From a virus, in IMG/VR virus record IMGVR_UViG_3300027759_000345, positions 1 to 28,097 of that record: 28,097 nucleotides of DNA; one strand, given 5' to 3'. A program made the translations under genes and the position numbers. The notes under the pieces are model-generated. The model worked only from the letters and a program-made list of their open reading frames with translations, was not told the DNA's origin and searched no databases. Below, one piece after another: positions 2,012 through 28,097 of the stretch. Each line of letters opens with the position of its first letter. The stretch's first letter is position 1.

Positions 2012-2037
2012 GCTCCGGCATTCGTGCCGGAGCTTTT
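2012..2037 (+). terminator. Intrinsic terminator after the DUF669 gene
   Basis: GCTCCGGCA, loop TTCG, TGCCGGAGC is a perfect 9-bp stem closed by a stable UUCG-type tetraloop and followed by TTTT. It sits 8 nt after a stop and before the Shine-Dalgarno (AGGGAG, 2042-2047) of the next gene. It probably reduces transcription of the nuclease/helicase genes relative to the upstream Sak4/DUF669 genes, since no new promoter is obvious in the short gap. Confidence 0.85.
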
Positions 2038-2053
2038 CATCAGGGAGATGAAA

Positions 2054-8571: not shown

Positions 8572-8725
8572 GTTGCGTCCTCTTTAGAATGTCCGACATT
8601 ACTTGAGCTTCATAATCGGAAACGGCGTCTGATCTGATTTTAACATAAACGCCGCTCAAGACCACTACAAGAGCGATAGCAATCATAGCGTATCGCCCAA
8701 GCGGGCTGAACAATAACGGGATCAT
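8495..8725 (-). CDS. Rz-like inner-membrane spanin (i-spanin)
   Basis: This is a 76-residue protein with one N-terminal membrane anchor (residues 11-30, YAMIAIALVVVLSGVYVKI) and a short charged periplasmic helix. It lies directly after the lysozyme (ATGA overlap) and contains the start of the Rz1-like gene. The size is below lambda Rz but usual for the short spanins of this phage group. Identification rests on topology, order and the nested lipoprotein gene rather than on sequence signature. Confidence 0.75.
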   Translation of the reverse strand: MIPLLFSPLGRYAMIAIALVVVLSGVYVKIRSDAVSDYEAQVMSDILKRTQHAIDAGDSAAVSPDRLLESDGHRRD

Positions 8726-9441: not shown

Positions 9442-9444
9442 GGC

Positions 9445-9939: not shown

Positions 9940-9955
9940 TTATAACCATCCTTAT

Positions 9956-10426: not shown

Positions 10427-10430
10427 TCCA

Positions 10431-10745
10431 TCATTGCCTCGTTTGTGGGCGGAACGGATAACGCCAGAAACCAATCTCAGATGCACCGCCGTTTACAGAA
10501 ATCTCAGCAAAGTATTTCTTGCCAGATTTAATTTGTAATGTGCTGGCGACGATTAGTCTGTAAGTGCCATTGCTGGCGCTTACATAATTCATAGCCGCTG
10601 GCCATGCTTGCCCGGCAACATTGCTTCCACAGTCGTCCTTAATCGTCACGGTGACTGTGGCATCGTTGACGTAAGTTTGATCGATTGCGTCCTGCAAGCC
10701 TTGCAGTTCCAGCACGTTTGTATTGGCGACAAAGGCAACCATCAT
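10431..10745 (-). CDS. Small beta-sandwich-like virion protein (hypothetical)
   Basis: This is a 104-residue protein taken from ATG 10745, which gives an ATGA overlap with the upstream repeat protein. VTVTIKDDCGSNVAG…YVSASNGTYRLIV…LKSGKKYFAEI-type alternation looks like an Ig-like or carbohydrate-binding-like beta sandwich, a type often found next to tail fibres. Two cysteines are present after the usable start. It probably decorates the tail tip or helps the repeat protein fold; this is inferred from position only. Confidence 0.65.
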   Translation of the reverse strand: MMVAFVANTNVLELQGLQDAIDQTYVNDATVTVTIKDDCGSNVAGQAWPAAMNYVSASNGTYRLIVASTLQIKSGKKYFAEISVNGGASEIGFWRYPFRPQTRQ

Positions 10746-11770: not shown

Positions 11771-11776
11771 GATTTT

Positions 11777-12241
11777 TTATCCTTGCGGAGCCACCGGCCA
11801 AATCACATTAAATGGATCAGTTTGGATGGTTATATCACGCAAAGCCTCGCGATATGTAATCCAAGCAAACGGATCAACCGGAGCATCTGCAAGCTGCGTC
11901 CAATCAGAAGCAGCAAGGAGATCATTTCGCTGCTTACGAACTATCGCCCATTGCTCTGCATCCTTTCTAGATTTATAGGAGGCTTCATCTTCTGCGTTTT
12001 CAAAAACAGGTGCCGCAATATATCTTGTATACCATTTACCATCTACGTCCTGCATAACTCCATCGCGAGACGAGTACTGATATGCGCTCAGATCGGCAGG
12101 CTGCGGTCCTTCAAAAACTGGATCAAGACCTAGCCACTCTATGATCTCAGGCGACGGATTTTCCGGCATCGAAATCTGCGGAAATGCAGAACGGATATTT
12201 GTAATAATTTCGCCAGTGTTGCGGATTCTATATTCGCTCAT
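11777..12241 (-). CDS. Tail-fibre assembly chaperone-like protein
   Basis: This is a 154-residue protein. The C-terminal half carries RKQRNDLLAASDWTQLADAPVD…WITYREALRDIT…WPVAP, the pattern of the phage tail assembly chaperone domain (PF16778-type) linked to tail fibres. The N-terminal part is acidic and tryptophan/proline rich. Such proteins are encoded next to the fibre they help to fold or are incorporated at the fibre tip. It sits just downstream of the 631-residue fibre, which is its likely client. Confidence 0.8.
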   Translation of the reverse strand: MSEYRIRNTGEIITNIRSAFPQISMPENPSPEIIEWLGLDPVFEGPQPADLSAYQYSSRDGVMQDVDGKWYTRYIAAPVFENAEDEASYKSRKDAEQWAIVRKQRNDLLAASDWTQLADAPVDPFAWITYREALRDITIQTDPFNVIWPVAPQG

Positions 12242-12251
12242 GCGATCAACC

Positions 12252-14147: not shown

Positions 14148-14710
14148 TACGTCACCTGACCAACAAGCGCGCCGTAAATTGTGGTGCTAATCTTCCAAAG
14201 CTGAATCACGGTGTAGCCGCCAGATGGAGTAAGGACAGGCGCAGAACCTCCTACCCATACAATCGGCATTGAAGTCCAATTCACTGTAAATGGAGTTGTG
14301 TTGTCATTGACCATTAACGTAATTGATTGACCTTCAGCCCATGTTCCAGCAGTTGGAGTTGAATTGCCAGAAAGAGTCCAAGTTTGAATTGAAGCATTTG
14401 TTGGCGTTATTGCTGGAGTTGTTCCAGAAAGAATATGAATTTCTTCCGTATATCCATCCAAAATAACAGGAGCAGACAAATTTTTAGATGATAACGTTGT
14501 CCCAACACCAAGTGTCAAACTAGCAAGTGTTAATTCGCCGGATACGCCTATTTCTTCAGCGACTCCAGTTGCGGCAGTTGTTCGACCCATTAATTTAGCA
14601 GTCGCCATTAATAGATCGTGTTCATCATTCCAGTTGGAAGGGCGAACAATAGTTGTGTCTGCGTCATCTGACTTTAGACTTGCGAATTTATGCTTTAATG
14701 AAACAGCCAT
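14147..14710 (-). CDS. Hypothetical tail/fibre-associated protein
   Basis: This is a 187-residue protein from ATG 14710 (GAGG 7 nt upstream; the in-frame TTG at 14716 is less likely). The N-terminus (VSLKHKFASLKSDDADTTIVRPSNWNDEHDL) is a motif repeatedly found at the start of phage tail proteins that anchor fibres. The remainder is beta-rich (LDGYTEEIHILSGTTPAITPTN…IQLWKI). It is encoded immediately before the large fibre and probably links it to the tail tip. The enzymatic function, if any, is unknown. Confidence 0.75.
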   Translation of the reverse strand: MAVSLKHKFASLKSDDADTTIVRPSNWNDEHDLLMATAKLMGRTTAATGVAEEIGVSGELTLASLTLGVGTTLSSKNLSAPVILDGYTEEIHILSGTTPAITPTNASIQTWTLSGNSTPTAGTWAEGQSITLMVNDNTTPFTVNWTSMPIVWVGGSAPVLTPSGGYTVIQLWKISTTIYGALVGQVT

Positions 14711-14736
14711 CTTCAATCCTCAAGCATAAAGACGAA

Positions 14737-14768
14737 TGGCCGCTGAAAGATGCCCAGCGGCCAGTTTT
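14737..14768 (-). terminator. Hairpin, probable (bidirectional) terminator
   Basis: Perfect 9-bp stem TGGCCGCTG / CAGCGGCCA with a 9-nt loop lies in the 59-nt gap between two late genes. On the - strand it is followed by TTCGTCTTT; on the + strand by GTTTT. It may partly attenuate fibre transcription relative to upstream tail genes, or protect mRNA 3' ends. Confidence 0.65.
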
Positions 14769-14769
14769 A

Positions 14770-15198
14770 CTAATCTTCAGTGATCGTTGAAGCCGTCGTG
14801 AGACGAGGCGTCACATTAGCTGCAACGCTGATGTTGGGCGTAACGGTGCCAGAGTAGAGAATTTTTCCAGTTCCACTAACCGCAGTTCCAACTGCAAAAT
14901 AGCTGATTGTTGAAGTTCCAGCAGTACATTCTGGAAAGTCGATTGCCGCAACAGGCGAAACACTATTGGCCGTTATAGTCCAGCCTCCAGATGTACGAGC
15001 AACTGTCTTGCGAGTATATCCGGTATATGCCGTTTCGTTAGTCGTCTGAGTTCCAGCTTCTCCCGGATCAGCGGTATGCAGCGAAACATAAAGATTAGTC
15101 AAAGGCGACGACGTGGCATTGTCTGCAAGGTTGGCAATCGCCGTGCCGTTGAAGATCAGAAGAAGCAGATCATTTTCGAAGGTATTTGATTTCGACAT
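14770..15198 (-). CDS. Conserved tail fibre-type protein, 142 residues
   Basis: AAGGAAA precedes the start. The protein reads NTFENDLLLLIFNGTAIANLAD, then LYVSLHTADPGE, GYTRKTVAR and a beta-rich end. This family is widespread in phage genomes and usually labelled tail fibre or hypothetical protein; LHTADPG…TNETAYTGY is diagnostic of it. It is probably a small structural component of the tail tip. A stem-loop terminator follows its stop. Confidence 0.8.
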   Translation of the reverse strand: MSKSNTFENDLLLLIFNGTAIANLADNATSSPLTNLYVSLHTADPGEAGTQTTNETAYTGYTRKTVARTSGGWTITANSVSPVAAIDFPECTAGTSTISYFAVGTAVSGTGKILYSGTVTPNISVAANVTPRLTTASTITED

Positions 15199-15254
15199 AG
15201 CCGTTTCCTTTTCAATCGGCGCGATTTATTGAACTTGCCACACCATACCACAAA

Positions 15255-15277
15255 TTGAGATCGCCGCTATATCTCAA
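15255..15277. repeat. Perfect inverted repeat in an 89-bp intergenic gap
   Basis: TTGAGAT, 9-nt spacer, ATCTCAA. It lies between the genes at 14770-15198 and 15288-15629, in the largest gap of the late operon. It could be an operator-like dyad or an mRNA hairpin. It is not a good terminator because the stem is AT-rich and no T-run follows closely. Confidence 0.5.
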
Positions 15278-15287
15278 CGATACATTG

Positions 15288-15629
15288 TCATGCTTCAGGA
15301 TATGGGAAGCGTGCGCGGATTTCAGCGCGTTTGCTTGTCCATACTGCTTCTGTTGTTTCGCCCGCCTGCCATTTGAAAAACAGCGGATCGGATTCAACGC
15401 GATAAGCGTTTGCGCGCTGAACCTTTGCATTGGCGATGATCTGCTCAGGCGTCGGCACAACGGGAACATATAACGCTGGATTGAGTTTCAGCGCTTCGGC
15501 GTAAATCTCACGGCCATGCGGTTCAACATCGGCTGGATCAGCAGTGAACGGAATCCAGCCATATTGCGGATGCTGAATTTCGCAGTCGATGGCGCCATTG
15601 GCGGTGAAAACAGGATTGCGGATGTCCAT
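15288..15629 (-). CDS. Small tail-associated protein, assembly-type
   Basis: This is a 113-residue protein. The N-terminus describes a strand-rich head (DIRNPVFTANGAIDCEIQHPQYGWIPFTADPAD), the C-terminus a helical part (PTPEQIIANAKVQRANAYRVESDPLFFKWQAGE). Proteins with this QHP.YGWIPFTA…EADPLFFKWQ layout recur beside fibre genes in phages and are considered tail-fibre accessory proteins. It starts 1 nt after the upstream stop, with a further gap after its own stop. Confidence 0.75.
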   Translation of the reverse strand: MDIRNPVFTANGAIDCEIQHPQYGWIPFTADPADVEPHGREIYAEALKLNPALYVPVVPTPEQIIANAKVQRANAYRVESDPLFFKWQAGETTEAVWTSKRAEIRARFPYPEA

Positions 15630-15630
15630 T

Positions 15631-16056
15631 TTATGCAGTCCTCAAGAATAGTGACGAAACGCCAAGCCCAGTGGCCGATCCGCTGTTGCCGGGATTGATT
15701 CGACCCATGCAACGCCATGTCCCTGCTGGAGAGGTCAGAGCATTAGCTGTTGCAGTGAATCCGCCTGAATTATCAAACAGCAAATAATCAATCGCGCCTG
15801 AGTATTTTAATGTTGAACCAGCAACCGTTGTTCCCGGCGTAATAACATCGTCTGAATGTAAGAACGCATACGTTCCAAGCGTTCCATATGTTGCACCAGC
15901 AATCCCATCTCTAACCGCTGCAAACAAAACGCGAGGCGCACCAGCAGCGCCCTCTGATATTGCCACAGGGTTATCCCGCAGAGCAGTGATAACCGAGCCA
16001 CGCGGCCTGCCACCAGCCGCCACGGCGGTATTTGGTATAGTTGTCCATGTTGTCAT
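15631..16056 (-). CDS. Hypothetical tail-tip protein, Gly/Ala-rich
   Basis: This is a 141-residue protein beginning TTWTTIPNTAVAAGGRPRGSVITALRDNPVAI, a motif common at the N-terminus of small tail-tip proteins in siphoviruses. The remainder is beta-rich with many Gly and Ser. It starts directly adjacent to the hub stop (TAA then ATG). It is probably structural; the fold or partner cannot be deduced. Confidence 0.7.
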   Translation of the reverse strand: MTTWTTIPNTAVAAGGRPRGSVITALRDNPVAISEGAAGAPRVLFAAVRDGIAGATYGTLGTYAFLHSDDVITPGTTVAGSTLKYSGAIDYLLFDNSGGFTATANALTSPAGTWRCMGRINPGNSGSATGLGVSSLFLRTA

Positions 16057-17799
16057 TTATAGCCACCTGAATGGGCGTTCAACGCCGTCTAAGTCTGTGT
16101 CATCATCCTTAAGCCAATAGCCGATTGTGGCTTTTTGTGTTGGCGTGGCACTAGCCCATTCTGGGATGGTATCGTCAACCCATTCCCAAAGGATTCCAAC
16201 CATATCGTTGTCTTCAGCCACAAAATCATAAACGCTGCCGTTTATTTTTGCTTCAGCCGACGTGATGACCCACGTATTCTGCTTGGCTGCGCCGGTAAAA
16301 TCAACGTCCATGAAGTGACTGATCGTCAGATTATCGCCGGTCCAATATGCCGTTTCATCCGTCAAGCTGAACGATACTTCACGCCGAACATCTTGGAAAC
16401 GGTTAAGATAAGTTGCGGCCAGATTATTCGCAATGGCGTCTGTCTGGATAAACCGGCAAAACAATTCACGCACTTGAGGCTCGCCACCGTACTCAATTTG
16501 CTTATCGACATTGATGAAGACAGTTGCGCGCTCGTAATTAAACTTGTCAGTTACCGATCCAGTAATGCTGCGCTGGATATAATAGACATGGATTTGCGAG
16601 GCGCGTTCTTCTGGGATTTCTTTTACAGAAAACGAACCAGCGATGATGTTGGCATCATCGGTGATCAAAGGCGGTGCTGCGTCTGGGCGCTGCGAGCGCA
16701 GAATTATCTTCTGCACTCGCTCATCCCACCAGATGCTCACCAAAGCCTGAAGACAAATCTCGGCCACCAATTCTTCAACCTTATTTGTTTCAGTTAAATA
16801 AGCGGTGAAGATAAATTCTGGGCGCCATTCGTCGGCTTCAGATTGCCATGCTGCATAATCAATATAGCTAGAGCCGATCTTTCCCCATGTTGTCAATAGA
16901 TCGTATAATATCGCATCAAAGCGAACATTCTCGTAAGCAAGGACGCGCTGAACTTTTGCGTTCTGAGATGCTGTCGCAGCTTCTGTATTGAGCAACGCGC
17001 GAACAACTCCGCTGAACACTACATTATTAAAAGCGTTAATTGCTCGCGACGTATAGGAAACGACCTCGCTTCCGATCCTGAGATAGCCGCTCGATGGGTA
17101 ATCGGTCAGAACTGCACCAGCAACTTCGATGCTTGTCGCATCAACCGTCAAAGCGGTTGCAAGTTCTCCCGGCGAAAGCGTTGGCGCGTTGACGTTTGTA
17201 TCCGTGACTTTGCGCAGAATATCTTTAGCTGTAATCGAGACGCCGTTGCGACCGAAGTCAATCTTTTCGATTATGTATTCGCGCTTTGTCATTGCAGACA
17301 ATGCTTGTCCACGATAGCCTTCATAAATCCTGACGATAAATCCAACATGATTTGGATTGCGTGCCAACCATTTTGACCAGAACGAGCCTTGCAATGCTGG
17401 ATTATAAGATCGACTGCTTAGATATGGATCGGTGCCAATGTCGTTCCAAGGAAAATCTTTGATCGTGATCTGGCAAACGCCGCGATAGCCAAGCGGAGAT
17501 TTATTCTTGCTGCCAGATGCAATGTTGAGCATCGTCGGCGCAGTCTGATAAGACATGAGTGCAGGAATGCCAAGCGCCGGTTGATAAGCGCCAGCCGTAG
17601 TGATCCATTCATGCGCTAGATCGCGCACGAATTGAAGCGATAGAGTATTGACAAGATTAAGAGCAGATCGATATTTGCATGTTGTATTTGTATTGAAGCA
17701 TTTATCTCCGGTCGCCAAGCAAGGCGACGTTCCAAACACCCGCGAGCAAAGCGGCTGGATGATCTCGACCATTTCCAACGGTTCTTGGGCGAATGTCAT
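16057..17799 (-). CDS. Tail hub/tip protein with gpL-like cysteine motif
   Basis: This is a 580-residue protein. The N-terminus has Cys18-x8-Cys27-x6-Cys34-x6-Cys41 (PLCSRVFGTSPC, KCFNTNTTCKYR). Lambda gpL and the gene transfer agent hub use C-x8-C and C-x6-C pairs to bind a 4Fe-4S cluster, so these residues are probable cluster ligands. The middle part (IEKIDFGRNGVSITAKDIL…) resembles DUF2163/tail-hub domains, and the C-terminal half is beta-rich with WTGDNLTISHFMDVDFTG. It should form the hub below the distal tail ring and carry the fibres. It starts in an ATGA overlap with the distal tail gene. Confidence 0.8.
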   Translation of the reverse strand: MTFAQEPLEMVEIIQPLCSRVFGTSPCLATGDKCFNTNTTCKYRSALNLVNTLSLQFVRDLAHEWITTAGAYQPALGIPALMSYQTAPTMLNIASGSKNKSPLGYRGVCQITIKDFPWNDIGTDPYLSSRSYNPALQGSFWSKWLARNPNHVGFIVRIYEGYRGQALSAMTKREYIIEKIDFGRNGVSITAKDILRKVTDTNVNAPTLSPGELATALTVDATSIEVAGAVLTDYPSSGYLRIGSEVVSYTSRAINAFNNVVFSGVVRALLNTEAATASQNAKVQRVLAYENVRFDAILYDLLTTWGKIGSSYIDYAAWQSEADEWRPEFIFTAYLTETNKVEELVAEICLQALVSIWWDERVQKIILRSQRPDAAPPLITDDANIIAGSFSVKEIPEERASQIHVYYIQRSITGSVTDKFNYERATVFINVDKQIEYGGEPQVRELFCRFIQTDAIANNLAATYLNRFQDVRREVSFSLTDETAYWTGDNLTISHFMDVDFTGAAKQNTWVITSAEAKINGSVYDFVAEDNDMVGILWEWVDDTIPEWASATPTQKATIGYWLKDDDTDLDGVERPFRWL

Positions 17800-18581
17800 C
17801 CGGCATAACCTGTGACGTCAATGGAAACGGCGCGATAGGCTTTCACGCCCATGTTAGCAGGCTGAACGTCTGAACTCGTCCATACCCAGCCAACGTCGGT
17901 TGTGATCGATGCTGGATTGCCAGCAATGCCGAACGGATAAAGAGGGAGCGTTTTAGCAAACGGCTCAAACGTTGAATCGTACCAAGCTGCTTCCAGATAA
18001 TCCCACGAATATGAAGTCGTAATCGCTTGGCGCTTGGCGATCCTGCCTAGCCATTGCCCTGTCTCGCTGAACTGTTGCTGCGCTTCGGTGACGCGGTTCA
18101 GAGTGATCGGCTTGTGTCCACCATAGATCGGCATCGTCATTTGCAAGGCAACGCCAGCGCGGATGATGCCGATATATATTCCTGATCCTGAATCAACTGT
18201 GATGCGTAGTTGACGGATTGAATAAGGCGTTCCTGCATTATTGAACAATACGCATATAGCTGTATTGTCAGTTGGCGTAACAGTTGCGCGAGTCACATAT
18301 GTGCTTCCAGTTGTCGCTTCTGTTTGCACCGTAATTGTTCTTCCGCTGAGATTATGCGCAGCAATAAAAACGCAATCCACGTTTACGCTTGCAGCGGTTA
18401 ATAGCGTCCAAGTATTTGCGCCAGCCGCACAAGCCCAACGCTGCGCTGTGTAGTCGTTCGTTGCATATGTTCCATTTGTTCCGGTAGCCGTTAAAGTTCC
18501 AGTTATTGGAGCATAAAGAATCCGCGCATGGGTCAAAGGATAATTGCTTCCGACCGTATAGCCTGCCGTGTTTATCGTCAT
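17796..18581 (-). CDS. Distal tail-like protein
   Basis: This is a 261-residue protein placed between tape measure and hub, the normal position of the distal tail (Dit) ring protein. The N-terminal two thirds are beta-strand-rich (CAAGANTWTLLTAASVNVDCVFIAAHNLSGRTITV), similar to a carbohydrate-binding-like sandwich. The C-terminal part has QFSETGQWLGRIAKRQAITTSYSWDYLEAAW…PFAKTLPLYPFGI, which is the stretch I regard as diagnostic of this tail protein group. Function is inferred mainly from order. Both ends overlap neighbours in ATGA. Confidence 0.75.
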   Translation of the reverse strand: MTINTAGYTVGSNYPLTHARILYAPITGTLTATGTNGTYATNDYTAQRWACAAGANTWTLLTAASVNVDCVFIAAHNLSGRTITVQTEATTGSTYVTRATVTPTDNTAICVLFNNAGTPYSIRQLRITVDSGSGIYIGIIRAGVALQMTMPIYGGHKPITLNRVTEAQQQFSETGQWLGRIAKRQAITTSYSWDYLEAAWYDSTFEPFAKTLPLYPFGIAGNPASITTDVGWVWTSSDVQPANMGVKAYRAVSIDVTGYAG

Positions 18582-20326
18582 GCCATTACGCCTCTGATCT
18601 GCCCGCCATTACGTTGCGTGGAGTTTAGCTGATCTATGAACTGCCGCGCAAACTTTTCTCCAAAGCCCATTGGATCGTTTGCCATTGTGAATTGAAACGT
18701 GGTCGTTGGCGATGGAGCAGCAGCGCCTCCACCTCCAGCGCCAGCAGCCGCAGCGCCTCCGCCACCTCCACCGCCGCCTGATGAATTGACGCTTTTAATT
18801 GATGCAACCGCAGCAAGACCCTTTGCCGCAATCGCAGCATACGCCACAAACTTCTGGAACGGAGTCACAAGTGTAGGATCGGCCATAGCTTGCGTTGCAG
18901 CCGAGAACGTAGACATAAGAGCCTGCGCTATATAGAACGCCTTCGCTGCTGCCGCACCTTTCTTGCCACCGCTTTCGATGATGCTGGCGATGCTGCCAAA
19001 CGTGCTTGCCATGTTTCCAAGCGTTCTTGCATCTGTTGCGGCTTGCATCCGTTGCATATTTTGCTGATGCTTTGCATCGAGTGCTTCGATGACTGCATCT
19101 TGTTCAGCTTTTAGAGCAGCCTTTGCTTCACCATGCAAAGCTGTATCAGCCAATTCAATCGCGAACGCTTCTTGAAGCAACAGACGATTGCGCTCATAGC
19201 GAGCAATCAACAGTTGTTCTTCGGTCAACGTGCTGTCGATAATGAACTGCATCCGTCGCTGCATCTGCGCGGTCATGCCGTCGTCTTCGACTGCTGCTGG
19301 TTTTACTTTTGCCGCTTCGGCGTCGGATATTCTTTTAAGAGCGGCTGCTCGTTCTGCTTCTAGTTTAATTCTTGCTGCACCTTCAATATTTCCAGCAGCT
19401 AATGCTTCAGCGTAAGCATTTTCTAGTTTTGTTCTGTCAGATATTGGTGTTGGAGATATTCCTTGAATTGTTTTCATTGCTGCTTCAAATTTGCGCAATG
19501 ATTCAGCAGCACCAGAAATTTCAAGATCAAGATTTGCGGCTGATGCCCCTGCCTTGTTAAGTGCAACTGCTACGCCTTCGGCAGACGAAATAATTTTTAA
19601 TAGTTCGTTTGCATATTTCTGAATGGAAGCATCGTCTTGAAATTGAAGCGCCAATGCGGCAACAGCGCGTTCAAAAGTTTGTAAATCAGGAGTGCCTCTC
19701 TTAACGCTATCATTGAAGGCAAGAATAGGAGCCTGAAATGCTTCAAAGCCTTTTTTAAGAGTTGTTCCTGCGGCATCAACATTGCCAAACATAATAGTGA
19801 TTTCGTCCAACGCAGGTCGCGTTGAAGATATAGAATTAACGATTGCTTCTGATAATTGCTGAACTTTTTCTTGCAGACTTCTGATTGATTCTTGGCTTTT
19901 TACTTTTAAGACTTCATCTGATTTTTTTTCAAATTCTTCTAAGCCTTTAATGGCTTCTGGATACGCCAACCCAATCGCTTTGATAACTTCGGCGTGCTGC
20001 TTTAAGACTTCGTCAAGAGTTGCAATTTTGTCCAATCCGCTTGTTACATAAGTAACAATAGCACCTCCAAGCAAAGTAACAGCAGTTGCTGCCAGATTTG
20101 CAGGATTTACCAAATTCATCAAAGCGCCAGCAAGACGACCAGCAGCAGGAACAGTTGAGGATTCTATATTCTTTCCGGCTTGTTCCATCGCCGTTGCAGT
20201 TGTTCTGCCTGCTGAATCAGCAGCCGCTTCAACTTGCTTTAACGCAGTAACAGTCTCAGCAGAACCTTTTTTGATTCCGTCTGTGTTGGCGCTGATGACG
20301 ATCTCAATAGTTTTGTTATCGGCCAT
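18578..20326 (-). CDS. Tape measure protein
   Basis: This is a 582-residue, mainly helical protein located after the frameshifted chaperones, as in all siphoviruses. Hydrophobic stretches occur at about 65-100 (LAGALMNLVNPANLAATAV) and in the 490-510 region; the central part is coiled coil. At about 516-537 there is a Gly/Ala-only linker (eight Gly in a row, then AAAAGAGGGGAAA), followed by a conserved C-terminal tail (PMGFGEKFARQFIDQL). The length is short: at the usual 1.5 Å per residue it would predict a tail of roughly 85-90 nm. It starts inside the end of the fused chaperone frame (11-nt overlap). Confidence 0.9.
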   Translation of the reverse strand: MADNKTIEIVISANTDGIKKGSAETVTALKQVEAAADSAGRTTATAMEQAGKNIESSTVPAAGRLAGALMNLVNPANLAATAVTLLGGAIVTYVTSGLDKIATLDEVLKQHAEVIKAIGLAYPEAIKGLEEFEKKSDEVLKVKSQESIRSLQEKVQQLSEAIVNSISSTRPALDEITIMFGNVDAAGTTLKKGFEAFQAPILAFNDSVKRGTPDLQTFERAVAALALQFQDDASIQKYANELLKIISSAEGVAVALNKAGASAANLDLEISGAAESLRKFEAAMKTIQGISPTPISDRTKLENAYAEALAAGNIEGAARIKLEAERAAALKRISDAEAAKVKPAAVEDDGMTAQMQRRMQFIIDSTLTEEQLLIARYERNRLLLQEAFAIELADTALHGEAKAALKAEQDAVIEALDAKHQQNMQRMQAATDARTLGNMASTFGSIASIIESGGKKGAAAAKAFYIAQALMSTFSAATQAMADPTLVTPFQKFVAYAAIAAKGLAAVASIKSVNSSGGGGGGGGAAAAGAGGGGAAAPSPTTTFQFTMANDPMGFGEKFARQFIDQLNSTQRNGGQIRGVMA

Positions 20327-20887
20327 CTGATTTCTTCATCCATGCCTTGAGGTCGTCAACGTCGTTTTGCTTTAGTTTCCCTGCGTATTTCTTCGGCTCA
20401 TTGATCTGCTCAAACTGATCCATGTGCATGTGGTACTCTAGCCACCATTCTGAGATAGTCATTTCCCAGAACTCGCTTGGCTGGATTCCCCATTGTCGCG
20501 CCCATAGATACAGATTATTCCAGTCTAACGGCTTGACGCCCTCGCCTTCGACCGTTTTTAGGCTTGGACGTCCTGATTTTTTATTTCGCGCGCCTCTGGC
20601 GTGAACGCCTTAAGCGTTAACTGAATCAATTCTCCAACTTCGGCTTGATCGCCGTTCATCAGTTCTTCGTACACTTCATCTTCGGTCGCAACCGCTCCAG
20701 CAGCCGAAAGCATACGATGCAGGACAAACGCCATGTGCGATATTTGCGGAACGCCTTTGGCCGTATTAACCGCAATGGCCGTTAGGCTGATGTCGCCCAT
20801 TTCAATGGAGCGCATGAGCCGCATTGATGGCGTGACAAAATATTCTTTGCCACGCCATACAATTTTAATTTCCCTGAAGACTGCCAT
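20316..20887 (-). CDS. Tail assembly chaperone fusion (G-T type) made by -1 frameshift
   Basis: Reading the 20558-20887 gene to codon 104 and then slipping back one base at A-AAA-AAT continues for 86 codons to TAA 20316-20318. The product would have about 190 residues. The extension reads SGRPSLKTVEGEGVKPLDWN, then WGIQPSEFWEMT and LEYHMHMDQFEQ, with the W…G…P.EFW.MT signature of the gene transfer agent gp10.1/TIGR02216 tail chaperones. No good start codon or ribosome site precedes the second frame. In lambda, G and G-T keep the tape measure soluble and recruit tube subunits. The fused frame ends inside the tape-measure start. Confidence 0.8.
20558..20887 (-). CDS. Tail assembly chaperone (G type, gene transfer agent gp10-like)
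   Basis: This is a 109-residue protein: FREIKIVWRGKEYFVTPSMRLMRSIE, then a helical body with AAGAVATEDEVYEELMNGD. The N-terminus resembles the gene transfer agent gp10 / GTA_gp10-type chaperone domain. It lies between the tail-tube genes and the tape measure, where all siphoviruses place this chaperone. It is the unshifted, more abundant product. Its last codons (REIKNQDVQA) contain the slip site. The start follows the upstream stop by 3 nt. Confidence 0.85.
   Translation of the reverse strand: MAVFREIKIVWRGKEYFVTPSMRLMRSIEMGDISLTAIAVNTAKGVPQISHMAFVLHRMLSAAGAVATEDEVYEELMNGDQAEVGELIQLTLKAFTPEAREIKNQDVQA
20576..20582 (-). promoter_or_regulatory. Programmed -1 ribosomal frameshift site
   Basis: On the - strand the sequence is A AAA AAT in the 0 frame of the chaperone (codons 103-104, Lys-Asn), a canonical X-XXY-YYZ heptamer. 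Slippage by one base opens the long downstream frame. A palindromic GGACGTCC follows 3 nt later, but no strong stimulator hairpin is obvious. Confidence 0.8.
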
Positions 20888-20890
20888 TTT

Positions 20891-21280
20891 TTAGACCGCC
20901 GTAAATGTGATAACGCCAGAAGACTGAATGTTCGCCGTGAACGTGACAGCATCTTCCTGTTCACCACCAAGCTCCAAGCTGTTGAGATAGAAGTTTCCGG
21001 CGAACGTACCGATGCCTTCAACCTCAATGCTCCAAGCCGCCAGCAAGTTTGCAACTGCGCCGACTGCCAGAGCAAGCAACGTGCTGTCTTCAAGAATGCC
21101 CTCAACGTCGGCTTCAATAGAACGAACGCCAGCATCTGCAAGCAATGTTGTCCAACCAGCATCGCTCTTTTCGGTAATATCGATAGGCTCGTTGTTGATC
21201 GTCAGATTATCAGTGCGAGCGCCAGCAATAGAAACGCCGCCTTTTTTGATACGCAGTTTACGTCCAGCAGTTGCAGCCAT
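20891..21280 (-). CDS. Tail tube protein, short paralogue
   Basis: This is a 129-residue protein sharing most positions with residues 1-128 of the upstream tail-tube gene: GRKLRI, GARTDN, NEPIDIT, DAGW, LADAGVRSIEA, GNFYLNSLELG and EQEDAVTF are identical. It belongs to the TP901-1-like major tail protein type (SAGVRSIEA.VEG is diagnostic). It lacks the C-terminal Ig-like domain of its partner. Either this or the longer copy may be the main tube subunit; the short form would give an undecorated tube. AAGGAAAC precedes the start. Confidence 0.88.
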   Translation of the reverse strand: MAATAGRKLRIKKGGVSIAGARTDNLTINNEPIDITEKSDAGWTTLLADAGVRSIEADVEGILEDSTLLALAVGAVANLLAAWSIEVEGIGTFAGNFYLNSLELGGEQEDAVTFTANIQSSGVITFTAV

Positions 21281-21294
21281 GATTCAGTTTCCTT

Positions 21295-21969
21295 TTAGGT
21301 AACAGGTCCAACGATGTTCGAGAAGGCAATAGTTGAGCCTTCCGAATTGGTGGCAGTGACGACGCAACGGATGCGTTTTCCAAGTTGAGCGGTAAGCGCC
21401 AACGTGGTCCCGGTCGATCCGCTGATGTTTGCCCATGATGGGCTGTTGGGATCGGCGCTGGTGCCGTTCTGCCATTGGCGGGCGAATGTGATCGTAGCAT
21501 CGCCAGCCCATGTGCCATTGGTCGTGGTCAACGTGGAGACTGTGGTCGTAGTGCCGGTGACGGCAGGCGCAACCGTGTTGTAAGGCGCGATGGTGGCGGT
21601 GATGGCGCCAGAGCTTGCCAGCGTGGCTGAGAACGTCACCGCGTCCTCTTGTTCTGCGCCAAGTTCCAAACTGTTTAGGTAGAAGTTTCCGGTAAACGCA
21701 GCAATTCCATCAACGTCCAGAACGCAAGACTTTATCAGCAGGCTTGAAGACCCTGTGGCGTTTGCAATCAGCGTCGAATTTTTCAGCACGCCTTCGACCG
21801 TTGCTTCAATAGATCGAACTCCAGCATCAGCCAACATGGTTGACCAGCCTGCGTCGTCTTTGTCGGTTATGTCGATAGGCTCATTCGAAATTGTGAAGTT
21901 ATCAGTTCGCGCGCCGACAACTGTCACGCCATCTCGAATGATACGCAGTTTGCGGCCTGAAATTGCCAT
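21295..21969 (-). CDS. Major tail tube protein with Ig-like C-terminal domain
   Basis: This is a 224-residue protein. Residues 1-128 are the tube domain (GRKLRI, GARTDN, NEPIDIT, LADAGVRSIEA, GNFYLNSLELG, EQEDAVTF). Residues ~132-224 form a bacterial Ig-like domain of the kind NGTW…ITFARQWQNG…LTAQLGKRIRCVVTATNSEGS. Ig-like domains on tail tubes project outward and help bind cell surface sugars. The next gene downstream is a paralogue without this domain, 14 nt away. AAGAGG precedes the start. Confidence 0.88.
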   Translation of the reverse strand: MAISGRKLRIIRDGVTVVGARTDNFTISNEPIDITDKDDAGWSTMLADAGVRSIEATVEGVLKNSTLIANATGSSSLLIKSCVLDVDGIAAFTGNFYLNSLELGAEQEDAVTFSATLASSGAITATIAPYNTVAPAVTGTTTTVSTLTTTNGTWAGDATITFARQWQNGTSADPNSPSWANISGSTGTTLALTAQLGKRIRCVVTATNSEGSTIAFSNIVGPVT

Positions 21970-22008
21970 GCTGATAACCTCTTTCGATTGGCGATCCTAC
22001 CACAGGGA

Positions 22009-22437
22009 TCAGGTAAGCCACAATACGTTATAGCGCAGCATTATGCGCAGCGTCTTACCATCTGGATCGTCCATGTCCTGCGAATCTTGAAGCTCGGTCG
22101 TAATATGCGTTGCGCCGGTAATCGTTAGCGGCTGGCGCCGCAAGCGCGCATCTACCGCGTCGGCGATTTCTTTTATCTCCAGAACGGATCGGCTGCGCGC
22201 CCAGATGTCGATCTGAACAGATGCCGATCCACCGACCGAATCTTTAACATCGTAAGGCGAGATGACATTGTTGCCGATGGTGATGAACGGGAAATAGGAA
22301 TCATCGCCGCTATTCGCAGCTTGTGGAACGCTTGAGAATATAGAAACCAGCGGCGCATATTTAGTGCTTAACAATGACGTAACGCTCGCATTGTTGAGCC
22401 GATTATAAATTGCTTGGTGAAGCGCTTTTGCTTTCAT
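22009..22437 (-). CDS. DUF3168-type tail completion/terminator protein
   Basis: This is a 142-residue protein with the DUF3168 pattern: ALHQAIYNRLNN, then FPFITIGNN…, SVQIDIWARSRSVLEIKEIADAV and a final strand (TLRIMLRYNVLW). Members form the ring that ends the tail tube and joins the head (like lambda gpU). The order after the gp10-like gene and before the tube fits this. It begins in an ATGA overlap. Confidence 0.85.
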   Translation of the reverse strand: MKAKALHQAIYNRLNNASVTSLLSTKYAPLVSIFSSVPQAANSGDDSYFPFITIGNNVISPYDVKDSVGGSASVQIDIWARSRSVLEIKEIADAVDARLRRQPLTITGATHITTELQDSQDMDDPDGKTLRIMLRYNVLWLT

Positions 22438-22862
22438 TTGCTTAACGCCTTTATAAGTGCGTCGATGTTGGCGTTGAGACTTTTTCGCGCATCAACAACA
22501 GCATGAACCCATGATGGGCGTGCCTTCATCATCATTGTTCCGTATTCAAGATAATACGCATAATCTAAACGGCTTCCAATCTTCACCTGAAGTTTGTTTG
22601 TCTGTTCAAAGAATATGGAATTGACCAGCGTTCCTGTATCGGTGGCCGGTGCTTCTCCCGGCGCTGATGCCTGATGGCTAATGCTGCCGCGCGTGTAAAT
22701 TGCGCCTGTCTTTGGCGGTCCTTGAATTCTTTTCTTTACGTCTGTGATTGCTTCTAATCCAACCGCCGTCACCAGTTCAGAAACGCCTTTTTCAACAGCT
22801 TCGCCATATTGAACAATCATGGCTTGAACCGCAGCGACGTTCTTGACTGTTACCGTTCTCAC
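22434..22862 (-). CDS. HK97 gp10-like head-tail/tail completion protein
   Basis: This is a 142-residue protein from GTG 22862. GGAGG lies 8 nt upstream and the GTG overlaps the preceding stop (GTGA); the longer frame lacks a ribosome site. The helical N-terminus (VQAMIVQYGEAVEKGVSELVTAV), SAPGEAPATDTGTLVNSI and YAYYLEYGTMMMKARPSW are the signature of HK97-gp10 family proteins, which bind at the head-tail joint or act as tail chaperone/terminator. Confidence 0.88.
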   Translation of the reverse strand: MRTVTVKNVAAVQAMIVQYGEAVEKGVSELVTAVGLEAITDVKKRIQGPPKTGAIYTRGSISHQASAPGEAPATDTGTLVNSIFFEQTNKLQVKIGSRLDYAYYLEYGTMMMKARPSWVHAVVDARKSLNANIDALIKALSK

Positions 22863-23203
22863 GTTGCGACCCCTCCTTCGCAATCAATCTGGAGCCAACG
22901 ATCTGCAAACTCAAGATTATTGATAAAGCGAATTTGGTGCGCTTGTCCTCGGATCAGAACCCGGTCGCCTTCAATGATCGTGGTTGAGTAGCGCACCAGA
23001 ACGCGCACGCGAAGGCTCGCCTCGATCCTGTCTGAAACAAAACGCTCGCGCCCACTGAGCGGCTTGATATGGGCGCGCGTTGGGGCGCCACTGATCGCCG
23101 CCCATGTTTCCGTTTGACCGCCTGCGTTATCGCTAGCAAGCGTGCGGCGCTGGAACGTCACGGTGTGGCTCAACATGTTCGAACTCATTTCGCAGCACTT
23201 CAC
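22859..23203 (-). CDS. Head-tail adaptor (SPP1 gp16-like)
   Basis: This is a 114-residue protein. LSHTVTFQRRTLASDNAGGQTETWAAI…ARIKPL-like and GDRVLIRGQAHQIRFINN are the family's usual motifs. It forms the stopper ring below the connector that keeps DNA in the head. The start chosen is GTG 23203 with GAGG 7 nt upstream and a GTGA overlap; in-frame ATGs at 23188 and 23176 are possible. Confidence 0.85.
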   Translation of the reverse strand: MKCCEMSSNMLSHTVTFQRRTLASDNAGGQTETWAAISGAPTRAHIKPLSGRERFVSDRIEASLRVRVLVRYSTTIIEGDRVLIRGQAHQIRFINNLEFADRWLQIDCEGGVAT

Positions 23204-23970
23204 GGGCGCACCTCGATGATTTCAAAACTAACCGAAATGTCGGCGGTATTGGATGCAGCCTTGCCCATAAAGCCGATGTCCGTCAATTCTGGAAACGGTC
23301 CAAGCGGCTGATCAAAATGTATATCATGAACGCCTGCGATCTGAGGATATTCTTCGACGATCCGCATGGCTTCATATGGTGCAGCAATCTGCAAGATTTG
23401 CTGGCGCTGAAATAAAATCAGATTCACCTTCTTTTCGGCATCGCTTGAAATCTTGATTGAACTAATGAACGCTGTGCGATGGAGCGGAACGCTATATGCT
23501 GCAACCTGACTTTGAGCGCGCGGAAAATCTGTATTGGTTATCGTTGCCCAATCAGTTCCACCAGCCGCATTTTCAATCTTGATTTCGCCAGCATGGGAAG
23601 AAGCGGTCTGCGTGGCATACGTTCCAGACGCAGAAACGAAAACACGATATAGCCGAATGAATTGCTGAACAGTTGGCGCGCTTGCAGAAGCGCCATTTGT
23701 TGCAATCGTTTCGCTGATCTCAACGCCATCAGCGTTCAGCCCAGTTATGGTGATCGCGCGAGCGCCAGACCCGTTCGCCGTGTCGTTAGCGTTTCCGCCG
23801 GGATGGATTCGCAATGCAGTCGCCGCATTGGCTTGTGGCGTCTGATAGATGCCGCCGATGCTGATCGGCACGAATGTTCCGCCAACAACTTTATTGCGCC
23901 CGAACTTGTGATTTTTCGTGACGCCTTGGCCAATCCCGCGCGATATGTCCAGCCCGCCGGGGAACGTCAT
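23200..23970 (-). CDS. Unknown virion structural protein
   Basis: This is a 256-residue protein inserted between the connector and the adaptor genes. The N-terminal part is Gly/Asn/Ala-rich (SIGGIYQTPQANAATALRI), then GLNADGVEISETI and other beta strands; LRRVEEYPQIAGVHD-like helices are few. Such an insertion is not part of the minimal HK97/lambda gene order. Beta-rich composition and position suggest a head-neck decoration or whisker-type protein. I do not recognise the family. Confidence 0.7.
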   Translation of the reverse strand: MTFPGGLDISRGIGQGVTKNHKFGRNKVVGGTFVPISIGGIYQTPQANAATALRIHPGGNANDTANGSGARAITITGLNADGVEISETIATNGASASAPTVQQFIRLYRVFVSASGTYATQTASSHAGEIKIENAAGGTDWATITNTDFPRAQSQVAAYSVPLHRTAFISSIKISSDAEKKVNLILFQRQQILQIAAPYEAMRIVEEYPQIAGVHDIHFDQPLGPFPELTDIGFMGKAASNTADISVSFEIIEVRP

Positions 23971-24644
23971 ATGCGAGCCGCCTTATACATATTCAAGATC
24001 GAAGATGCGCCGCTCATTTGATAAGCATCGCCAGCCGAGCAGTTATCGCCTCGGTGTTCATACATATACGCGGCAAGCTGTTTGACCGCCTGCTTATACA
24101 TCATCGGGACGGTGCAAGGCTGCGCGCCATGCCCAGCGGTGTAGATGATCTGAATCGCATTGTTGGCACGCATTGCGCTTGGCCATGTTGCACCGCGCTT
24201 CAGCGTCAGGCGTCCGGGATTGCTATATGTGTCCACATCGAACGTGTTGGCGACGTTGACGACCGTTGCTGTGCCATCCTCGTCAAATGTGGTGACGCTA
24301 ACGATGCTCGCCAGCGGCCAGCGCGGGAGCGATACAGATGTCAAAGAATTTGCGCCATAGAGTTCGCTGATCGGAAACTGGCGAATCCCATCCCACCACG
24401 CTTCAGCGCCATTCGGCCAGTGATCGATGGTCATGCGGACGGTTTGCGTAACCATTGCCACATTGGTGGCTGTCTCGATATGCGTGCGAGAAGCGGTGAT
24501 ATAGTCGAGCGCGTCAGGAAAATCGTTTTCATCCGTGCGCAGATGCGCCCAGAGTTCTTCAGCCGTGATCGGCTCCTCTGCTGGCCCAGTGACAACCGTA
24601 TTGCCACGATCTTGATAAAGACGAATCGCCGGGCGCAATGTCAT
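23967..24644 (-). CDS. Head-tail connector (phiE125 gp8 / HK97 gp6 type)
   Basis: This is a 225-residue protein: GPAEEPITAEELWAHLRTDEN, then ITASRTHIETATN, and a late IQIIYTAGHG and MYKQAVKQLAAYMYEHRGD. The pattern is that of the phiE125 gp8 family, which builds the ring below the portal. Residues 60-170 hold an insertion with FPISELYGANSLTSVSLPRWPLASI, also usual. Position right of the tail genes and left of head genes fits. Confidence 0.85.
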   Translation of the reverse strand: MTLRPAIRLYQDRGNTVVTGPAEEPITAEELWAHLRTDENDFPDALDYITASRTHIETATNVAMVTQTVRMTIDHWPNGAEAWWDGIRQFPISELYGANSLTSVSLPRWPLASIVSVTTFDEDGTATVVNVANTFDVDTYSNPGRLTLKRGATWPSAMRANNAIQIIYTAGHGAQPCTVPMMYKQAVKQLAAYMYEHRGDNCSAGDAYQMSGASSILNMYKAARI

Positions 24645-24875
24645 TTAGATTGCCTTTCTTGGCCTGCCGCGCGGGCGCGATATTGTCTGAACTTCTGAGC
24701 CTTCGGCTTTCCACTCCAGACCAGCCGCGATGCTATGAATTCTTTGCGCTGCTCCAGCCTGTATAGCGCGTTCTGCGATGCTGCCGCTAACCACGTCGCC
24801 CAGATTGAAAACTACGACTGTGTGGCCGTCTGGCGCGATCCTGAAGCCCATCGGTGCAATGATCTTGGCTTCCAT
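24645..24875 (-). CDS. Hypothetical small protein, basic C-terminus
   Basis: This 76-residue protein directly precedes the connector gene. VFNLGDVVSGSIAERAIQAGAAQRI is a helix-rich part and SRPRGRPRKAI a basic, AT-hook-like end (RPRGRPRK). It may contact DNA in the head-neck region, but similar short genes also occur as structural accessories. No family recognised. A terminator hairpin lies upstream of its start. Confidence 0.65.
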   Translation of the reverse strand: MEAKIIAPMGFRIAPDGHTVVVFNLGDVVSGSIAERAIQAGAAQRIHSIAAGLEWKAEGSEVQTISRPRGRPRKAI

Positions 24876-24891
24876 ATTCCGCTCCCTTTGG

Positions 24892-24920
24892 AAAAGAGGC
24901 GGGACAAGCCCGCCTCTGTC
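24892..24920 (-). terminator. Intrinsic terminator downstream of the capsid genes
   Basis: On the - strand GAGGCGGG, loop CTTGT, CCCGCCTC is a perfect 8-bp stem followed by TTTT. It lies after the 147-residue decoration-like gene and should partly terminate transcription, leaving the capsid genes upstream at a higher level than connector and tail genes. Confidence 0.85.
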
Positions 24921-24923
24921 TTA

Positions 24924-25367
24924 TTACGTGGCCGCAACAGCGGTGCCAAGGAAAGTCGTCTTGGCTTGCGCGGGCATCTGAACGGTAGCCAAAATCTTGA
25001 CAACCGCGTTGGTGCCGGTGGTGCCGACGCCGTTCAGGCGCAGATAACGCTTCGAGCCTTTGTAGCCGATTGCGCCAATCAACTTGTCGTCATCTGCATC
25101 AGCGGTGACGGTGATCGAGATCACGCCATCGGTAGCATCAGCGGCGACAATCGAAGCAGCAGAAGCCGCAGTCGTCAGATCGCTGTGCTGGGCGGTGAAT
25201 GTGAAGCCAGAAGCATCGCCAGCATCGGTTACAGTCTGAGTAACCAGCGAGATCAAAGCGGCGTCAAAGCCACGCAGATCAACCCAAGACGACGCGCCCG
25301 GCGTGGTGCCGGAGAGCGTTACGGTACCCAGCAGCACTTGCTGCATATTAGATTTAATATCACGCAT
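24924..25367 (-). CDS. Probable head decoration protein
   Basis: This is a 147-residue protein, rich in Ala, Thr, Val and Asp, encoded after the major capsid gene and before a terminator, the usual location of abundant decoration proteins. Strands such as LGTVTLSGTTPGASSWVDLRG and GYKGSKRYLRLNG suggest a beta-sandwich. No cysteine. No family assignment is secure; another abundant head protein is possible. Confidence 0.7.
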   Translation of the reverse strand: MRDIKSNMQQVLLGTVTLSGTTPGASSWVDLRGFDAALISLVTQTVTDAGDASGFTFTAQHSDLTTAASAASIVAADATDGVISITVTADADDDKLIGAIGYKGSKRYLRLNGVGTTGTNAVVKILATVQMPAQAKTTFLGTAVAAT

Positions 25368-25399
25368 TTTTTTCGTCCTTCATCGAACGTGAATGGGAT

Positions 25400-25421
25400 G
25401 GGGCGACGTTATCGCCGCCCC
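25400..25421 (-). other. Hairpin between capsid and decoration genes
   Basis: GGGGCGGCG / CGTCGCCCC with a 4-nt loop (one mismatch) lies 7 nt after the capsid stop. No T-run follows on the - strand, so an mRNA-protecting or processing hairpin is more likely than a terminator. It would allow different decay rates of the two cistrons. Confidence 0.5.
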
Positions 25422-25428
25422 TGATTGC

Positions 25429-26724
25429 TTACGCGGTGAACTCGATCAGCTTGAGAGCTTCAAAGTTGACCACATCGCCGCCAACGCGCTTCGTGGTGTA
25501 GAACTCCACGTAAGGCTTGGCAGAGAAGGGGTCACGAAGCGTGCGGATGCCGATGCGATCAACGATCTGATACGCTTCGCGCATGTCGCCGACGGCAATC
25601 GACAAGCTGTCGGTGGCCGGATCAGGCATGTCCTCAAACGACGCAACCGGATAGCCCATCAGGAACGAAGGCTGGCCAGCGGCAATGCCGGGAGACCAGA
25701 GATACGCGCCATAGCTATCCTTGAGCTTGCGAGTCAAAGTCAACGTGGCGCGGTTCATAAACCACGTTGCGTTGGCGCGATACTGAGCCTTGAGACCATA
25801 CAGAGCATTGATCAGCACATCGCCGCCATTGGGAGCAGCCGCAAAGCCACCATCAACGCCGGTGATGAAACGCTGCATCGTGCCGGGCAAGGTCGTGCCA
25901 GACGCATAGGTCAGAAACCCACGCGGCTTGTTCACGCCAGAGCCGTTAACGAAAGCAGCCGCTTCGTCGCGCGAGAACTTTTCCGAAACCTTGGAAGCAA
26001 GCCATGCTTCCATGTTGATCTCGTTATCATCCAAGAGCTTCTGCGTTGCCTTCGGCTTGGCGTAAAGCTCATGCGTCGGGATGCGCCACTTACCAAGCTG
26101 CGGAGTGTTAGTTTCCGAACGCGCGTCGGTCTCGCCGACCCAGCCCGAAGATGCTTCGTCGAGATCAAACAAGCCTTCGAGCGCATCGCTCGAAATCACC
26201 TGAATGCTCGCATAGGCGCGCATGGGCGAGGATTCGAAGACCTTGGCGACGATGCGGCCAGACAGATCGGGATGAACGACGTAGCCGCCATCGGGATCGG
26301 AGCCAACCGAGAGCGCCTTGATTTCGTTCGCGCCGAGCGAACGCTCGTCCTTGCGCAGGAACGTGTCGAACGCCGCCTTGTAGGCGTCCAGATCAGAAGC
26401 GCCGTACTCGCGAACGTCCAGACCACGCGAGCGAGCAATGCCGCGCGCCCAGCTGAGAGCCTTCTGGTCGAGATCGACATGCGAGCCGCTGGCGTCGGTG
26501 ACAACGCGCGAGGAACGCTTGACGGCCAGAGCAGCATCGTCGGCGATCTTCTGAGCCTTGTCGAGATCGGCTTCGATCTTGCGGAGCTTTTCCTCAAGCA
26601 CCGGATCGGCTGCGCCTTTCTTGGCGATTTCAGCGATCTTGGCATCGTTAGCGGATTTGAACTCTTCAAAGCCACGGTTCAGGGATTCGATGGCGCTCAT
26701 GGCGCCCTTCATTTCATCAGACAT
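25429..26724 (-). CDS. Major capsid protein, HK97 fold
   Basis: This is a 431-residue protein. Residues 1-~70 form an acidic coiled coil (FEEFKSANDAKIAEIAKKG, EEKLRKIEADLDKAQKIAD), the scaffolding delta domain expected to be removed by the protease. The mature part follows near KALSVGSDPDGGYVVHPD, a motif found at the delta/shell boundary. FVNGSGVNKPRGFLTYAS and AMWFMNRATL-like motifs (ATWFMNRATL) are typical of the HK97 family. It makes the icosahedral shell. The start lies 8 nt inside the protease end. Confidence 0.95.
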   Translation of the reverse strand: MSDEMKGAMSAIESLNRGFEEFKSANDAKIAEIAKKGAADPVLEEKLRKIEADLDKAQKIADDAALAVKRSSRVVTDASGSHVDLDQKALSWARGIARSRGLDVREYGASDLDAYKAAFDTFLRKDERSLGANEIKALSVGSDPDGGYVVHPDLSGRIVAKVFESSPMRAYASIQVISSDALEGLFDLDEASSGWVGETDARSETNTPQLGKWRIPTHELYAKPKATQKLLDDNEINMEAWLASKVSEKFSRDEAAAFVNGSGVNKPRGFLTYASGTTLPGTMQRFITGVDGGFAAAPNGGDVLINALYGLKAQYRANATWFMNRATLTLTRKLKDSYGAYLWSPGIAAGQPSFLMGYPVASFEDMPDPATDSLSIAVGDMREAYQIVDRIGIRTLRDPFSAKPYVEFYTTKRVGGDVVNFEALKLIEFTA

Positions 26725-27523
26725 GATTCAGCTTTCCTGTGAGATTGTTGATGCGTTCAATGAGAGCAGAAATACCCTCGTCCTTCGCCTCGCCAGTCTC
26801 AGCATCCCGCTGATCGGTTATGGCCTTGAAGCCGTGCAATGTAATCGCAGCGGCGTCTTTACGAGAATATCCTGCTTCCCGCAGGAATTTCTCGAACTCG
26901 CGTTCGGTCGCAATGCTCTTGACCGATGTCACCTTAGCATCAGGCAGCATCGGGAACGTGACCAAACTAATCTCAAACAAATCTACTTCCATCAGCTTGC
27001 GCACGCGGCCATCGCCTTCAGCGACTGCTTCAACCGTGCGATAGCCGATGGACATGCTGTCAATGGCGCCAGCTCGCATCAGCGCCATAGCCTCGCGGCC
27101 TTTCTGGACATCCTTGAGCAGACGACCCTTCACGAACAGCCCGCGATCATCTTCTTCGATGTAATCAAAAACGCCGATTGGCTGCGCCATATCATGCTGC
27201 CAAAGCATCTTGACCCTGCGCCCGCTGCCAAGCGATTTGCGGAAAGCGCCGCGCTCAACAACGTCCATGCCTTGATCGATGATTCCGAAAACAGACGCAT
27301 AGCCTTCGAACATGCCATCTTCGTCTGGCTCTTTCTTCAAGCTCAACGATACGTTTTTGAAACTTATCATGGCATCATCCGATTTTGGTTTTTCATCATC
27401 CCAGATGGAATTGCACACCGCAAAGCGCTGATCGCCGTCTGGATACTTTTCGACATATCTGTCGAAACCCATGCAGCGGTCTATAAACTCTTGTCTGTTT
27501 TCAGTCTTGCTAGGCTTTGGCAT
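26717..27523 (-). CDS. HK97-type prohead protease with N-terminal extension
   Basis: This is a 268-residue protein. Residues 52-200 are the prohead protease: FEGYASVFGIIDQGMDVVERGAF, His110 (MLWQHD), Ser158 (DSMSIGYRT) and Glu184 (LFEISLVTFP) match the His-Ser-Glu layout of HK97 gp4. Residues 1-~45 are an extra module (FIDRCMG…PDGDQRFAVCNSIW) with Cys17 and Cys37, which also appears in other phage head proteins. It cleaves the capsid delta domain inside the prohead. About 50 residues follow the core. Confidence 0.93.
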   Translation of the reverse strand: MPKPSKTENRQEFIDRCMGFDRYVEKYPDGDQRFAVCNSIWDDEKPKSDDAMISFKNVSLSLKKEPDEDGMFEGYASVFGIIDQGMDVVERGAFRKSLGSGRRVKMLWQHDMAQPIGVFDYIEEDDRGLFVKGRLLKDVQKGREAMALMRAGAIDSMSIGYRTVEAVAEGDGRVRKLMEVDLFEISLVTFPMLPDAKVTSVKSIATEREFEKFLREAGYSRKDAAAITLHGFKAITDQRDAETGEAKDEGISALIERINNLTGKLNHV

Positions 27524-27558
27524 GGTGTCACCATATCATGAGACATTTAATTGAACAA

Positions 27559-28097
27559 TTAGCTTGAATTTCTAACGCGAGCCGCCGCGCGAGCGATGAT
27601 CGCATCAGTATCGACAACAAAGCCAAGCGCACATCGGCAGTTGATAACATTGCCGGCGCTTCCATTCGGATCGCCGGGAAACATCAGCGCTTCTGTTCCA
27701 CCATCTAACTTAGCAATCTGGAATGGCTGTTCAGCGCCAACGATTTGACCGTTTGCGCCAACGTGATCGAACAGATCGCCGTCTTCAGTTGTGCGCGTGC
27801 GCTTATCCTGCGCGCTGATCCATTCGCGATTCATTGGCAGATCGGTTTTCTTTGCTGCTTCGTTAGCGCCATAGTTGGCTGCGCCATGCGTTTCGGTTCG
27901 TGCAATGGTTCGCGCTCGCATCTTTGATATGGATTTAATCACTTCCAAAATAGATTTGACCGTTTCGCTTTGCGTTAGACCTTCAAGAAACGCTTGCGCA
28001 AGAGCGCGCACCAACCAGAGGCGCGTTGTCTTTTCAACGCCAATGATCCTTTGTCGGATTGTTTCGTTGTTGATATAGCGCAGCGCCGCGTTACGCA
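27559..28097 (-). CDS. MuF-type head morphogenesis protein, C-terminal part (5' cut)
   Basis: The frame is open to the right window edge, so at least 178 residues are encoded and the start is outside. ARTIARTETHGAANYGANEAAK, REWISAQDKRTR…DGDLFDHVGANG, and FPGDPNGSAGNVINCRCALGF are the hallmarks of the Mu gpF minor head protein family. Members sit in the head near the portal and may be injected. The gene lies just before the protease, as expected, or may be fused to the portal. Confidence 0.9.
   Translation of the reverse strand, partial: RNAALRYINNETIRQRIIGVEKTTRLWLVRALAQAFLEGLTQSETVKSILEVIKSISKMRARTIARTETHGAANYGANEAAKKTDLPMNREWISAQDKRTRTTEDGDLFDHVGANGQIVGAEQPFQIAKLDGGTEALMFPGDPNGSAGNVINCRCALGFVVDTDAIIARAAARVRNSS

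Follow-up and report, generated by a model that had tools for sequence, protein, structure and literature searches.

Two adjacent tail tube genes, one with an Ig-like domain, are retained together in a virus lineage

A sequence of 28,097 nucleotides from an uncultivated phage (IMG/VR record IMGVR_UViG_3300027759_000345, positions 1 to 28,097; hereafter the window) contains two adjacent tail tube genes, designated A and B, on its minus strand. The tail tube of a siphovirus is commonly regarded as many copies of a single protein. The upstream gene, A, encodes a tube domain (residues 1 to ~126) followed by an immunoglobulin (Ig)-like part (residues ~127-224), and the downstream gene, B, encodes a plain tube protein. 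The pair consists of the following features.

21295..21969, minus strand: A, tail tube protein with a C-terminal Ig-like domain, 224 aa; identified by PF06199, phrog_1407 and an AlphaFold2 (AF2) model
21295..21594, minus strand: Ig-like C-terminal domain of A; from the AF2 beta-sandwich and weak IG_AIR9 matches in relatives
20891..21280, minus strand: B, plain tail tube protein, 129 aa; identified by PF06199 and by Rcc01691 (6tba) of the Rhodobacter capsulatus gene transfer agent (RcGTA)
21281..21297, minus strand: TAA stop codon of A and Shine-Dalgarno sequence of B, AAAAGGAAA; read from the sequence

A preliminary description of this DNA had proposed a tandem duplication with about two-thirds identity between the copies, and alignment and profile searches bear this out. 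A and B are identical at 82 of 125 residues (66%; 82% similar; BLASTP E 7e-58). Both score well above the cut-off of 23.8 bits for PF06199 Phage_tail_2 (B 67.3, A 62.4), both match phrog_1407, major tail protein (E ~1e-23), and the PF06199/phrog_1407 family is also matched by all 19 relatives of A. Scores for the TIGR02126 phgtail_TP901_1 equivalog (B 28.2, A 35.8 bits) fall under the NCBIfam cut-off of 37. The aligned DNA is 64.6% identical, with a nonsynonymous divergence (dN) of 0.28 and a saturated synonymous divergence (dS) of ~2. Since third codon positions agree at only 40% and dS is saturated, the DNA has diverged far more than the protein, as had also been claimed.

The modelled structures place both proteins in the tail tube fold. 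B matches Rcc01691 (6tba), the tail tube protein of RcGTA, in both sequence (E 5.6e-12) and fold (E 1.4e-4, prob 1.00, template modelling (TM) score ~0.56), and the top Foldseek match of A is lambda gpV, with a TM score of 0.25 over both domains. A tube-type beta-sandwich with one helix is present; the two models, built from shallow alignments of 19 sequences, are of moderate confidence (predicted local distance difference test (pLDDT) 82.8 and 74.1). Because the TM scores are low to moderate, fold identity leans on sequence and topology jointly. For the ~100 additional residues of A, the model gives a beta-sandwich at high confidence (pLDDT mostly 93-97). IG_AIR9 is weakly matched by 5 of 19 A proteins (best E 0.0025); among the same 19 there is no curated Pfam Ig-type match (Big_1, Big_2 or FN3) above cut-off, and the domain has no match in the phage collection. 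Its assignment as Ig-like is therefore made from the AF2 model, sequence profiles barely detecting it. The model and the lambda gpV match agree with the earlier proposal that only the upstream copy carries such a domain.

The pair is widespread and is maintained intact. IMG/VR searches with B, A and relatives recovered 91 contigs containing both genes, with A upstream of B every time; three have one copy partly cut, and the uncut pairs represent 61 distinct protein pairs. In the window the Shine-Dalgarno sequence of B abuts the A stop codon, with the B start codon 14 nt past the stop, and relatives display the same arrangement with gaps of 9-18 nt (L018, listed with a gap of 0, was set aside from this range as its B start was called too far upstream). 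Contigs of the A/B family with a single gene (L022, L025, L079, L098, L118 and L144) are all cut by the contig end, and no degraded A or B copy was found among the relatives examined. Median dN/dS between relatives is 0.071 for the A tube domain, 0.072 for the A Ig-like domain and 0.055 for B, so that strong purifying selection acts on each of the three domains. The suggestion that both copies are selected is thus sustained. We found no point in support of a redundant recent duplicate or an assembly artefact, a reading that the relatives refute and to which we attach next to no probability; 66% identity, saturated synonymous sites, 91 two-gene contigs and low dN/dS in both copies all stand against it.

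More distant relatives (~28-42% identity) have one plain gene; these are nine annotated phage records, a Mesorhizobium contig and two IMG/VR contigs, L280 and L286. All 19-21 matching records in the phage collection contain one place per record, and the sole match in the genome collection was the distant single-copy gene on the Mesorhizobium contig. Among 142 sampled genomes of the class to which Mesorhizobium belongs, PF06199 gave 20 matches and no tandem arrangement; one genome has two, on different contigs. As far as searched, the tandem pair within the PF06199/phrog_1407 tube family appears to be a trait of one lineage. On the Mesorhizobium contig, the single tube gene and a chaperone-like gene are separated by a further gene (L265:5423-5839), whose product has a signal-like N-terminus.

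A tree of 19 representative pairs and nine single-copy outgroups recovered A as monophyletic (support 94/97), and monophyly of B is compatible with the data (approximately unbiased (AU) test, p 0.40). Topologies that unite the A and B of one genome as a recent pair were rejected for the window (p 0.016), L148 (0.029) and L080 (0.041) and were not rejected for L229 or L187. A single old origin of the tandem fits this tree, and one ancient duplication would be its simplest account. B lies nearer to the outgroups and is also the better conserved copy (mean identity 0.71 vs 0.63 for A), so A has changed more. B would be the ancestral plain subunit.

In lambda gpV, T5 pb6 and the YSD1 tube protein, as in A, a tube domain is followed by a C-terminal Ig-like domain; unlike the A/B pair, there is only one tube gene in each of these phages, and no subunit lacks the domain. 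The existence of all-Ig-bearing tubes in lambda, T5 and YSD1 (PMC8718954) lends some plausibility to A as the main tube subunit, with B minor or capping, and in 38 of 61 pairs A has a slightly stronger ribosome-binding site than B. We nevertheless regard this arrangement as highly improbable, because B is more conserved, resembles the lone tube genes of relatives more closely and adjoins the chaperone gene as those genes do. Shine-Dalgarno strengths are in any case alike (medians -6.5 kcal/mol for A and -5.6 kcal/mol for B), and ribosome-binding sites were rejected as a guide to the commoner subunit because they are uninformative on this point.

In SPP1, plain and extended tube subunits (gp17.1 and gp17.1*) are produced from one gene by frameshifting, and the plain and FN3-extended forms are mixed 3:1 (PMC8718954). 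The window resembles SPP1 in that one phage encodes a plain subunit and a subunit with a C-terminal Ig-type domain; it differs in using two genes whose tube domains have diverged, with B having its own start codon and Shine-Dalgarno sequence. A frameshift origin of A was rejected, since one continuous frame spans the tube and Ig-like parts. The preliminary description had supposed that the duplication simply does the job of the SPP1 frameshift, and that part of it is not supported as worded, given contig L227, which retains both genes with no Ig-like domain on A and none on B. Its 12 nt gap between A and B has no space for an Ig remnant. The A protein of L227 clusters with that of L080, which bears the domain (support 97/92), and the deepest A branch (L187, L229) carries it too, so loss in L227, a single contig, would be the simplest account. 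Retention of the pair without the domain indicates that the second tube gene is kept for more than decoration. An SPP1-like scheme in which A is B plus a surface domain, the tube parts being interchangeable and the gain a fixed Ig dose, accommodates the architecture of A and the purifying selection on its Ig part. It is nonetheless unlikely, given L227 and given that the tube parts of A and B, which show fixed differences, had parted as lineages before the family radiated.

In one segment the two tube domains resemble each other as much as A proteins, or B proteins, resemble their own kind. Same-genome A-B likeness reaches 0.84 for residues 28-39 and 0.77 for residues 40-51 (0.81 and 0.70 among A proteins, 0.89 and 0.75 among B proteins) and is only 0.33 for residues 82-92; the C-terminal strand has diverged too. 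Residues 28-51 form a strand, loop and helix in the modelled fold. A long tube-protein loop links successive discs in RcGTA (PMC7296036), and a loop in this fold makes disc-to-disc contacts in JBD30 (PMC11445458). Judging from the model, residues 28-51 of A and B may contain the ring-stacking loop, and the natural reading is that both proteins could stack in a tube.

Overall, A resembles the B of its own genome slightly more than it does the B of another genome (0.579 vs 0.541; 0 of 20,000 shuffles, which ignore the relatedness of rows), and the excess holds without L080. This excess fits contact between A and B. Codon likeness at matched positions is 0.452 vs 0.406 for a codon-usage control. 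Gene conversion was rejected as the general cause of A/B likeness, there being one clear tract only. That tract, in L080 (IMGVR_UViG_3300035698_001417), comprises 44 nt identical between A and B at about codons 30-45, with high third-position likeness; it overlies the putative stacking segment and is a probable product of gene conversion.

Together, these observations make it about an even call, in our judgement, that A and B form a two-subunit tail tube with the Ig-like domain of A exposed on its outer surface. Long ago, tandem duplication of the tail tube gene would have led to a two-subunit tube in this lineage, both copies preserving the tube fold and a putative ring-stacking segment of strand, loop and helix. 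A and B would be expressed from a common operon, each with a good ribosome-binding site, and would assemble together in one tube enclosing the tape measure protein. The Ig-like domain of A would lie on the tail exterior, where it might touch cell-surface sugars or neighbouring material. Joint assembly in one tube, the A:B ratio and the task of the domain are inferred.

Several points weigh against a two-subunit tube. Gene conversion, shared composition or row relatedness could yield the same-genome A-B excess, and conservation of the stacking segment is also to be expected if A made one or a few rings. Between L002 and the window B is 95% identical and A only 69%, indicating that either gene can be exchanged without the other and that tight matching is not needed. 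In the comparison of L002 with the window, the A-B boundary is a recombination point.

A and B occupy the slot between the tail terminator gene and the chaperone and tape measure genes, and the tube gene is in the same slot in nine annotated relatives. The adjoining features are as follows.

22009..22437, minus strand: tail terminator, 5' neighbour of A; phrog_176, PF11367
20558..20887, minus strand: GTA-gp10-like protein, probable tail assembly chaperone, 3' neighbour of B; phrog_2115 (E 2.4e-7), with PF11836 under cut-off
18578..20326, minus strand: tape measure protein, 582 aa; phrog_9483, phrog_1538

The main rival to a two-subunit tube is a division of labour in which most of the tube consists of B, A being confined to one or a few special rings at the head-proximal end or the tip, as an adaptor ring with a tube fold. 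We consider this possible, if on the unlikely side. Consistent with it, B is the more conserved copy and the more similar one to the plain tube proteins of phages with a single such gene, A persists in L227 without the Ig-like domain, and several features consistently set A apart from B: an N-terminus one residue shorter and V19, S56, K64, C83, D96, A106, L118 and E119 (B numbering). Moreover, the stopper, terminator, tube and distal tail proteins of RcGTA are regarded as products of duplication from a single gene (PMC7296036). On the other hand, A equals B in the quality of its ribosome-binding site and has an intact putative ring-stacking segment, and the terminator, head closure and adaptor each already have their own gene in the window. 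A stricter version of the two-subunit tube, an obligate two-component polymer with heteromeric A/B rings or regular alternation in which neither copy would suffice and the Ig-like domain would be dispensable, appears doubtful to us; we know of no siphovirus with such a tube.

Other features of the window were recorded alongside. Between the gp10-like and tape measure genes lies a small frame with a WW motif (20316-20462, minus strand), and L227 has a similar 63-aa frame with a TTG start; it is a probable second small chaperone gene, of uncertain start. A 256-aa phrog_8198 protein of unknown function (23200-23970, minus strand) is encoded between the head-tail adaptor and head closure genes, with a similar one at the same place in L227. 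The plus strand carries recombination and replication genes at 443-5104 (Sak4-like, single-stranded DNA-binding protein, Cas4-type exonuclease and helicase), and lysis, tail and head genes occupy the minus strand at 8722-28014. A 12.4-kb part of the 37,538-b IMG/VR contig L001 is 99.99% identical to the window, which is probably part of a longer virus sequence.

Tails with two major tail protein genes are already known from Gordonia cluster DJ phages (Chikenjars, FortCran) and from actinobacteriophage clusters AM, AU, AW, BI, CC and EL, so that the A/B pair is a variation on known two-gene tails and not a new kind. The cluster DJ tubes belong to another family (phrog_2645 in Chikenjars, in contrast to phrog_1407 here), and one gene separates their copies, whereas A and B are adjacent and 14 nt apart. 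Identity between the cluster DJ copies is also lower, gp25 and gp27 of Chikenjars, the one cluster DJ phage that we rechecked, being 41% identical. The authors of the cluster DJ work suggest horizontal gain of one copy; here one old duplication is simplest. RcGTA has the same tube family in plain form, and its Rcc01691 (6tba) is the closest solved structure to B, but it has a single plain gene. A precedent for mixed rings is the Hcp2-Hcp3 heterohexamer of the Bacteroides fragilis type VI secretion system (9vne, by entry title), in which paralogous tube-fold proteins share one hexamer; unlike A and B, these form a secretion-system tube and are distant in sequence. New here are the other tube family, the adjacent genes, the one old duplication and the losable Ig-like domain; open-licence full texts were searched, and an earlier report is possible.

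Kept in every uncut case across at least 91 contigs, the duplicated tube gene offers a natural test of heteropolymer phage tubes, of the purpose of a second subunit and of surface Ig-like domains. L227, with the pair and no Ig-like domain, separates the question of the second subunit from that of the domain.
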